Part shown: positions 31,114 to 35,755 of the stretch, one piece after another
Position numbering within the stretch: the stretch's first letter is position 1
Layout: each line of letters starts with the position of its first letter
NCBI GenBank assembly: GCA_023473665.1
Contig: JAMCYM010000003.1
Span: 124,001-188,000, forward strand
Length of the DNA stretch: 64,000 nt
Direction of reading: 5' to 3'
From: Candidatus Marsarchaeota archaeon
Lineage (GTDB): Archaea; Micrarchaeota; Micrarchaeia; Micrarchaeales; Micrarchaeaceae
The notes under the pieces: model-generated
Told to the model about the DNA's origin: nothing
What the model saw: the letters and a program-made list of their open reading frames with translations, nothing else
Databases searched by the model: none
Program-made: the position numbers and the translations under genes

Positions 31114-31206
31114 GGCGTGGACCAACGTACAAACGTTTTAATAGAGTGCGCATCACATATTATGTCGTGCCAGGGTGGCGGAAACCGGTAACGCGTACGC
31201 CTGGAA

Positions 31207-31221
31207 ATCAGTGCACTCGCA
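31207..31221 (+). other. tRNA-Ser intron 1, anticodon loop (37/38)
   Basis: ATCAGTGCACTCGCA at the canonical position. The bulge-helix-bulge is relaxed: exon CTGG against intron CTCG gives one mismatch and one G-T pair in the 4-bp central helix, with 3-nt bulges AAA and CAA. Cleavage needs a splicing endonuclease tolerant of imperfect motifs. Confidence 0.75.
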
Positions 31222-31255
31222 AGCGTATGGCTCTCACGGGCCATCTGGGTTCAAA

Positions 31256-31270
31256 AGCTCACGCTGAATA
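31256..31270 (+). other. tRNA-Ser intron 2, T-loop (59/60)
   Basis: AGCTCACGCTGAATA. Here the bulge-helix-bulge is perfect: central helix TTCA/TGAA, 3-nt bulges AAA and TAT, and an inner GC/GC stem with loop TCAC. Excision rebuilds a standard TTCAAAT T-loop. Confidence 0.8.
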
Positions 31271-31297
31271 TCCCAGCCCTGGCGTTTTGGTGCTAAT

Positions 31298-31978
31298 ATG
31301 GCAGACGAGAAGGAGCAGGCCAAGCCTGATGTGCAGGCCAAGCCCCAGAGGAAGGATGAGCGGCGCGGCGCCACGTCGATAGTCAGGATAGCGGGCAAGG
31401 ACGTCGACGGTTCGCTGAGCATCACGAGAGCGCTGCGCGAGATAAAGGGCATAAGCTTCAGCATGGCCCAGGCCATGAGCTCGATGGCCCAGGAGAAGCT
31501 CGGCATAAATGCATCGACCGCAATCGGCTCGCTCAGCGAAGAGCAAACTGCGAAGCTCGAAGCGCTCATCAAGGAGCCAGCCAAGGCGGGCGTGCCAAAG
31601 TTCCTGCTCAACAGGCGAAAGGACTTCGAGACGGGCGAGGACATGCACACAGTAGGCAACGATCTCATATTTTCTACCAGGCAGGACGTGAGCCGCGACA
31701 TAACCATAAAGGCATGGAGGGGCATGCGCCACCAGTACGGCCAGAAGGTAAGGGGCCAGCACACGAGGAGCACAGGCAGGACCGGCGCTACGGTTGGAGT
31801 GGTAAAGAAGGCAGTGCTGCAGAAACCGGGAGCGGCAGGAGCTCCGGGCGCACCAGGTGTGCCCGGCGCAGCAGGTGCCCAGCCGGCCCAAAGCGCCTCA
31901 GCTGCGCCAGCAGCAAAAGCCCAAGCGGCAGGCGCGTCAACAGCCAAGAAGGAGGAAAAAACAGAGAAGAAGGAATGA
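31298..31978 (+). CDS. rps13: 30S ribosomal protein uS13 with collagen-like tail
   Basis: Residues ~25-175 are uS13 (IVRIAGKDVDGSLSITRALREIKGI, GVPKFLLNRRKDFETG, WRGMRHQYGQKVRGQHTRSTGR). A charged 25-residue N-terminal extension precedes it, and a roughly 50-residue C-terminal tail of Gly-Ala-Pro triplets (GAPGAPGVPG) then Ala/Lys follows. Archaeal uS13 normally ends soon after the TGRTG motif. First gene of the uS13-uS4-uS11 cluster. Confidence 0.95.
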   Translation: MADEKEQAKPDVQAKPQRKDERRGATSIVRIAGKDVDGSLSITRALREIKGISFSMAQAMSSMAQEKLGINASTAIGSLSEEQTAKLEALIKEPAKAGVPKFLLNRRKDFETGEDMHTVGNDLIFSTRQDVSRDITIKAWRGMRHQYGQKVRGQHTRSTGRTGATVGVVKKAVLQKPGAAGAPGAPGVPGAAGAQPAQSASAAPAAKAQAAGASTAKKEEKTEKKE

Positions 31979-34507: not shown

Positions 34508-35755
34508 ATGGAAGTCACAAGGGCGTACAAATTCAGGATCTACCCTAACGATAAATGCCAGAATGCGATAGAAAACCAGCTTGCATTGTCAAAAGACTTC
34601 TACAACAAACTCCTCGAAAAGGCAAAAGATGCATACGAAAAAGACAAGTCCTTCAAAATAAAAAGAAGCACATTCAACAGAATAAAGAAAGGGATAATTG
34701 CAGAAAACAAGGACTTCCTAAAGATATACTCGCAGACGAGATGCGAAATAGAGGATAGGGTCATAAAGGCCTATGCAAACTTCTTCAGAAGAGTGAAGGA
34801 GAAGAAATCAGGTAAGAAAGTAAAGGTTGGATTTCCGCGTTTCAAATCGATAGACAGATATTACAGCATTGTCTATCCCCAGGACAATGGCTCTTTTTCA
34901 ATAGAGAAGGAAAGGAAAAAAGAGATGCTCAGGGTTTCAAGGATAGGCAGAGTCCAGATAGAACAGCACAGGAATATCGTAGGCAACATAAAGACGATGA
35001 CAATAAAGAAAGATGGCAATGAATACTATGCAATCTTCACCGCAGAACAGATAATCAATCCTCCAAAGATAGAAGACACAAATCCTGTCGGCATAGATAT
35101 GGGACTCAACAACTTCATTGCGCTGTCGGATGGCAATATGATACAAAAGCCAAAGTTCTTCAAACAGAAGGAAAAGAAAATTGCGAAATGGCAGAAGATT
35201 GTTGCAAGAAGGAGCAAAGGCTCAAAGAGAAGGCAGAATGCAAAGGAGAAACTTCAAAGTGCATGGAATGGGGTAACAAGGGCATCAGACGACTTCATGC
35301 ACAAACTTTCCAACAGATTAGTGCATGAGGGATATACATCATTCGCAGTAGAGGCACTTCACATAGACAACATGGTAAAGAACCATCGTCTTGCCCAGTC
35401 AATACAAAATGCCTCATGGAATAGGTTCATTCAGATGCTTTCATACAAGGCTGAAAGTGCTGGTATGAAAGTAATAAAGGTATATGCAAGGAATACATCA
35501 AAGGAATGCAGCAACTGCGGCAACATAATGGAAATGCCGCTGTCGCAGAGAACATACGTCTGCAACAGATGCGGCATGCAGATGGACAGGGACATAAATG
35601 CCGCAATAAACATACTTACAAAAGCTACCCTCGGACAGAGGGAAAGTAACGCTCAGGGAGATATTTGCCTCTACGATGTAAAGGGCATCGCAAGCAGTGT
35701 CGAGGAACTGAGAACCGGTAAAACACATCCTTTGCAGGATGCAGTGATTGCATGA
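34508..35755 (+). CDS. tnpB: TnpB RNA-guided nuclease (OrfB)
   Basis: A 415-residue Cas12-ancestor protein. It has an N-terminal helical/WED-like part (EVTRAYKFRIYPN), RuvC-I Asp197 (GIDMGLNN), RuvC-II Glu282 (AVEALHI), a zinc ribbon (CSNCG...CNRCG) and RuvC-III DRDINAA with Asp360. All catalytic residues are present, so it is probably active as a guided nickase/nuclease that keeps the element in place. Codons are strongly A-rich (AAA, AGA, ATA), unlike the host genes, a sign of transfer. A GGTATATAAAAA promoter lies about 25 bp before the ATG. Confidence 0.93.
   Translation: MEVTRAYKFRIYPNDKCQNAIENQLALSKDFYNKLLEKAKDAYEKDKSFKIKRSTFNRIKKGIIAENKDFLKIYSQTRCEIEDRVIKAYANFFRRVKEKKSGKKVKVGFPRFKSIDRYYSIVYPQDNGSFSIEKERKKEMLRVSRIGRVQIEQHRNIVGNIKTMTIKKDGNEYYAIFTAEQIINPPKIEDTNPVGIDMGLNNFIALSDGNMIQKPKFFKQKEKKIAKWQKIVARRSKGSKRRQNAKEKLQSAWNGVTRASDDFMHKLSNRLVHEGYTSFAVEALHIDNMVKNHRLAQSIQNASWNRFIQMLSYKAESAGMKVIKVYARNTSKECSNCGNIMEMPLSQRTYVCNRCGMQMDRDINAAINILTKATLGQRESNAQGDICLYDVKGIASSVEELRTGKTHPLQDAVIA

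Follow-up and report, generated by a model that had tools for sequence, protein, structure and literature searches.

Introns at the T-loop position 59/60, archaeal tRNA genes interrupted by two or three introns, and cleavage of bulge-helix-bulge (BHB) as well as bulge-helix-loop substrates by splicing endonucleases (EndA) of the epsilon-2 type have all been published (PMC4090602, PMC6379350, PMC4033280, PMC12397907), so that the gene described here is a further case of a known phenomenon. One enzyme of this type, the epsilon-2 EndA of ARMAN-2, cleaves pre-tRNAs of both motif classes in vitro (PMC12397907), whilst in Cyanidioschyzon merolae the T-intron blocks formation of pseudouridine-55 by Pus4 (PMC9602550).

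The locus was found in a window of 64,000 nucleotides, by which we mean the whole stretch of DNA analysed (positions 124,001 to 188,000 of contig JAMCYM010000003.1, assembly GCA_023473665.1), from the 0.78-Mb genome of a micrarchaeon (DPANN). Reading base by base, the tRNA-Ser(GGA) gene forms a complete class II cloverleaf with a long variable arm and discriminator G, and with full pairing in the acceptor (GCCAGGG/CCCTGGC, 7/7 bp), anticodon (TACGC/GCGTA, 5/5 bp) and T (CTGGG/CCCAG, 5/5 bp) stems. The anticodon loop (CTGGAAATCAGTGCACTCGCAA) and the T-loop (TTCAAAAGCTCACGCTGAATAT) are both 22 nt long and return to normal 7-nt loops, CTGGAAA and TTCAAAT, on removal of 31207-31221 and 31256-31270 respectively. 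The first insert lies between A37 and A38 (31206/31207), one nucleotide 3' of the anticodon and hence at the canonical 37/38 site, its cut register being ambiguous by one base owing to A repeats, and the second (boundaries 31255/31256 and 31270/31271) lies between T-loop positions 59 and 60. From this anatomy, the splice motifs, 92 orthologues and the EndA and RtcB genes of the host, we are confident that this is a functional, apparently single-copy gene whose pre-tRNA would contain two introns, both cut by an epsilon-2 EndA.

Table 1. Features of the tRNA-Ser(GGA) locus (window coordinates) and further tRNA genes of the host genome (G000) with T-loop inserts.
Feature	Location	Strand	Remarks
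tRNA-Ser(GGA) gene, two introns	31169..31284	+	exons 86 nt in total, discriminator G31284 included; CCA not encoded
anticodon GGA	31203..31205	+	
intron 1, 15 nt ATCAGTGCACTCGCA	31207..31221	+	canonical 37/38; relaxed bulge-helix-loop, CTGG x CTCG, U33 mismatched
5' T-loop exon TTCAAA (positions 54-59)	31250..31255	+	TTCA forms the 5' side of the BHB central helix
intron 2, 15 nt AGCTCACGCTGAATA	31256..31270	+	non-canonical 59/60, T-loop; canonical hBHBh' motif; intron-minus orthologues read TTCAAAT
T60, 3' T-loop exon	31271..31271	+	predicted loop after splicing TTCAAAT
rpsM (ribosomal protein S13), directly 3' of tRNA-Ser(GGA)	31298..31978	+	
tRNA-Arg(TCG), L032	G000 C3:82833-82946	-	40-nt T-loop intron of the family common to Ser, Lys and Ala tRNAs of relatives
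tRNA-Leu(CAA), L037	G000 C3:267270-267367	-	14-nt T-loop insert, BHB motif unclear
tRNA-His(GTG), L028	G000 C3:16955-17040	-	16-nt T-loop intron, compensated C55 (TCCG/CGGA); missed by ARAGORN

The gene escapes the common tRNA finders used here. ARAGORN missed it, also when introns were allowed and the whole genome was searched, as did Rfam at the gathering threshold, the sole Rfam mark on the gene being 12.7 bits. In a cloverleaf scan of the 778,769-base genome that allowed for introns in both the anticodon and the T-loop, it scored 23.5, against at most 18.5 for the best spurious matches. Since finders miss such a gene, the gene sets of ultrasmall archaea can seem to be without an essential tRNA. 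A second intact tRNA-Ser(GGA), the finding that the sequence-only reading had named as speaking against it, was looked for throughout the 0.78-Mb genome (95.9% complete) with ARAGORN allowing introns and with the intron-tolerant scan; none was found, and the idea of a pseudogene with an intact copy elsewhere was rejected on that ground. The gene is apparently the only serine tRNA gene of the genome able to read UCC and UCU, codons that eight genes of the window use 34 times.

The T-loop intron forms a perfect BHB, with a central TTCA/TGAA helix, bulges AAA and TAT, and an inner GC/GC helix. On shuffling this intron, the 4/4 central helix arose in 1.2% of cases, and together with an inner helix of 2 bp or more in 0.09%. 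When 65 distinct homologous introns of the T-loop were taken together, a mean of 3.94 of the 4 central-helix pairs was formed, where shuffles gave 1.58 +/- 0.11, and the mean inner helix was 3.83 bp long, where shuffles gave 0.65 +/- 0.12; none of 1000 shuffles approached these averages. The central helix also varies in a compensatory manner, since base 55 is T where its intron partner is A and C where the partner is G, both in tRNA-Ser(GGA) (TTCA/TGAA vs TCCA/TGGA, the latter in L180) and in tRNA-His (TTCG/CGAA vs TCCG/CGGA). The anticodon-intron motif of the window gene (C32-G, U33 x C mismatch, G34-U, G35-C) is weak, with one mismatch and one G-U in its 4-bp helix and no clear inner helix, and it is a relaxed motif closer to the bulge-helix-loop. 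Amongst 80 distinct homologous anticodon loops, position 32 is paired in 80/80, position 34 in 80/80 and position 35 in 78/80, U33 being paired in 19/80; a relaxed motif with unpaired U33 is the rule in tRNA-Ser(GGA) and not a defect of the window gene. Both motifs, the canonical one in the T-loop and the relaxed one in the anticodon loop, stand far above shuffles across homologues. The sequence-only reading had proposed two introns in this one gene, in loops of 22 nt that each shrink to 7 nt on removal of 15 nt, with a perfect BHB in the T-loop and a relaxed, mismatched motif in the anticodon loop, and in all of these respects it was borne out.

A search with the window gene gave matches in 97 of 99 genomes, and named records with the same pattern are mostly Candidatus Micrarchaeota or Micrarchaeaceae, including Micrarchaeum sp. 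A_DKE; the genome that we take to be the latter (G032) has both introns in tRNA-Ser(GGA). Orthologues were parsed from 92 genomes of the order (88 genes in full and four later), many of which are related draft metagenome assemblies, so that counts are not those of independent events. The match runs on into rpsM in several relatives (five genomes), which supports orthology. The anticodon intron is present in 92/92, no intron-minus orthologue for it occurring among these genomes, whilst the T-loop intron is present in 73/92 and absent from 19/92. Among the 88 full parses, predicted spliced T-loops read TTCAAAT in 71/71 and natural intron-minus loops read TTCAAAT in 17/17; this identity of the predicted product with natural intron-minus alleles is, short of RNA, the strongest evidence that the intron would be spliced out. 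In many of the genomes sampled beyond the order (at least ten), tRNA-Ser(GGA) likewise has an insert in its T-loop, in two of them (G262 and G134) without an anticodon intron. The two inserts of the window gene are almost certainly real introns, predicted to be removed by a broad-specificity splicing enzyme and inherited across the group.

Intron lengths in the order range from 10 to 24 nt in the anticodon loop and from 13 to 43 nt in the T-loop. The sequence-only reading had thought the identical 15-nt lengths of the two introns striking, a claim that did not survive: equal lengths occur in 5 of 73 intron-bearing genes (expectation from independent draws, 1.6%), two of the five being from sister genomes, and as lengths vary freely among relatives the match is a coincidence.

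T-loop introns are found beyond tRNA-Ser(GGA), in the His, Arg and Leu tRNAs of the host genome (Table 1) and in Ala and Lys tRNAs of relatives. Intronless His relatives read TCCGACT or TCCGATT, TCCGACT being the predicted spliced product. A second type of T-loop intron, ATAAAC-TTTTGG...TTTAATCAAAA, occurs whole or in part in the Ser(GGA), Arg(TCG), Arg(CCT), Lys(TTT), Lys(CTT) and Ala(GGC) tRNAs of different genomes. With a pattern that fixed only the two ends, 6/6 matches also had ATAAAC and a T run in common between the ends, and a reversed control pattern had no match in 98 genomes. Sharing of sequence beyond what the BHB requires suggests copying between tRNA genes. With such a family common to Ser(GGA), Arg, Lys and Ala tRNAs, and a member of it in the host tRNA-Arg(TCG), the T-loop intron of the window gene might be a real intron that was recently copied from another tRNA gene and not long inherited; we consider this unlikely, however, as the window intron is of the other type, AAAAGC...GCTGAATAT, which sits at Ser(GGA) in many genera of both families.

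Far less probable is that the T-loop insert is retained, giving a mature tRNA with an expanded T-loop from which only the anticodon intron has been removed. Insert lengths do vary between species, as those of a tolerated loop might, but within the order they run to 43 nt, and outside it apparently to 116 nt (G228, which like G154, the other of the longest inserts, has no clean 59/60 motif and uncertain boundaries), and an expanded loop would disturb the elbow between T-loop and D-loop. The BHB motif kept far above shuffles, the compensated changes of base 55, and the 19 of 92 orthologues that lack the insert and have the loop TTCAAAT likewise tell against retention. A decayed pseudogene or an assembly error, to which the failure of standard finders might point, is scarcely credible for a gene with all stems fully paired and no substitute Ser(GGA) gene found, when a 92%-identical region with both inserts exists in another genome of the genus and the gene itself occurs across the order.

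Two further loci of the host genome were noted. A tRNA with anticodon TAA (Leu; G000 C1:62781-62886, +, L006), labelled as His by ARAGORN, has an apparent D-loop insert of ~21 nt, and a tRNA-like 3' half, GCGGG TGCGATT CCCGC (G000 C2:353964-354014, +, L026), has no obvious 5' half and may be either a fragment or one piece of a tRNA that is split or has a long intron. The window also contains an open reading frame (34508-35755, +) that, we presume, resembles an IS605-type TnpB/OrfB protein.

Loss of the T-loop intron goes together with a change of the T-stem. The stem TAGGG/CCCTA is found in 14/19 intronless vs 1/73 intron-bearing Ser(GGA) genes by genome (Fisher, 1.3e-11), and, after states are collapsed by genus, in 9/14 vs 1/40 (3.4e-6), intron-bearing genes having CTGGG or TTGGG. 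The same TAGGG/CCCTA T-arm is present in tRNA-Ser(TGA) and (CGA) of the compared genomes, and the Ser(GGA) genes of one genome pair (G068/G069, loci L093/L092) differ mainly in the T-arm. That gene conversion by a Ser(TGA) or (CGA) paralogue lies behind the loss is thus a possible and reasonable hypothesis. As the sole route of loss it is not established, as there are exceptions in both directions: five losses keep the old stem, and TAGGG occurs in a few intron-bearing genes (G074; L303, L304). Conversion after the loss would give the same pattern as conversion causing it. A wider scheme can be proposed, in which a T-loop (59/60) intron family of the Micrarchaeota has been copied between isotypes (Ser, Arg, Lys, Ala) and is tolerated because the epsilon-2 EndA is broad in specificity, whilst the Ser(GGA) intron is old, mostly vertical in descent and repeatedly lost, often with the switch to TAGGG/CCCTA that points to conversion by the paralogues; we see this scheme as evenly poised between right and wrong.

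The host encodes one strong EndA gene, whose 388-aa product has two PF01974 matches in one frame and aligns over residues 1-388 to ARMAN-2 EndA (PDB 4FZ2; E 2.4e-179; 257/387 identical, 66%). Judged by homology it is an epsilon-2 enzyme, a single chain of ~390 aa with three units, whose homology to the ARMAN-2 enzyme extends over its entire length. The catalytic residues Y236, H251 and K282 are all conserved, as are Y160 and K161 of the ARMAN-specific loop and the remaining RNA-contacting residues that PMC12397907 names (full list checked: Y160, K161, K228, Y236, H251, R275, K282 and W384). An endonuclease of broad specificity had been expected from the gene alone, and when the check was run an epsilon-2 EndA with the ARMAN-specific-loop Tyr and Lys was indeed present. 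EndA matches were found in 35/36 genomes sampled within the class, mostly as open frames of ~380-420 aa in which a single frame holds both domain matches; in seven genomes a second, shorter EndA-domain protein stands beside the long epsilon-2-like one. An RtcB ligase is also encoded in the host genome (E 1.4e-167).

On the preferred reading, tRNA-Ser(GGA) would be transcribed as a pre-tRNA carrying both introns, each of which would be cut by homodimeric epsilon-2 EndA. In the T-loop the enzyme would recognise the canonical BHB formed by bases 54-57 (TTCA) with intron TGAA and cut at 59/60, and in the anticodon loop it would recognise the relaxed bulge-helix-loop at 37/38. RtcB presumably then ligates the exons to give the 7-nt loops CTGGAAA and TTCAAAT. 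The T-loop intron would probably have to leave before modification of T-loop bases.

To our knowledge, neither the class-wide persistence of this intron nor a shared T-loop intron family has been described in micrarchaea. A literature search on Micrarchaeota tRNA introns gave no title or abstract on this gene, the gene-by-gene list for ARMAN-2 (Fujishima 2011) lying outside its coverage. The presence/absence series, with its exact intron-minus alleles, is a ready test set for epsilon-2 EndA recognition of relaxed and T-loop motifs. Lineage and enzyme type are shared with the multiple-intron tRNAs of ARMAN-1 and ARMAN-2 (PMC4033280) and their epsilon-2 EndA (PDB 4FZ2, 9W2K; PMC12397907, PMC6379350). 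The tRNA-Ile(UAU) of C. merolae (PMC9602550) also combines an hBHBh' T-loop intron with an anticodon intron, but there in a eukaryote, a red alga, with three introns (D-, anticodon- and T-loop BHB) and a different enzyme. The 59/60 introns of Crenarchaeota and Nanoarchaeota (PMC4090602) are alike in insertion position, in BHB motif and in having a canonical 37/38 intron in the same gene, whereas here the archaeal lineage is another, the same tRNA is affected across an order and beyond, and the enzyme is of epsilon-2 and not (alpha-beta)2 type. With an intron family common to several tRNAs, and with intron loss coupled to a change of the T-stem, a second lineage is open to direct tests of how archaeal tRNA introns come and go. 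Alike introns in different tRNA isotypes are known, and the same holds in micrarchaea, here at the T-loop site only as far as examined; if such copying is real, it would parallel the spread of introns known from Thermoproteales, with an independently evolved enzyme loop.
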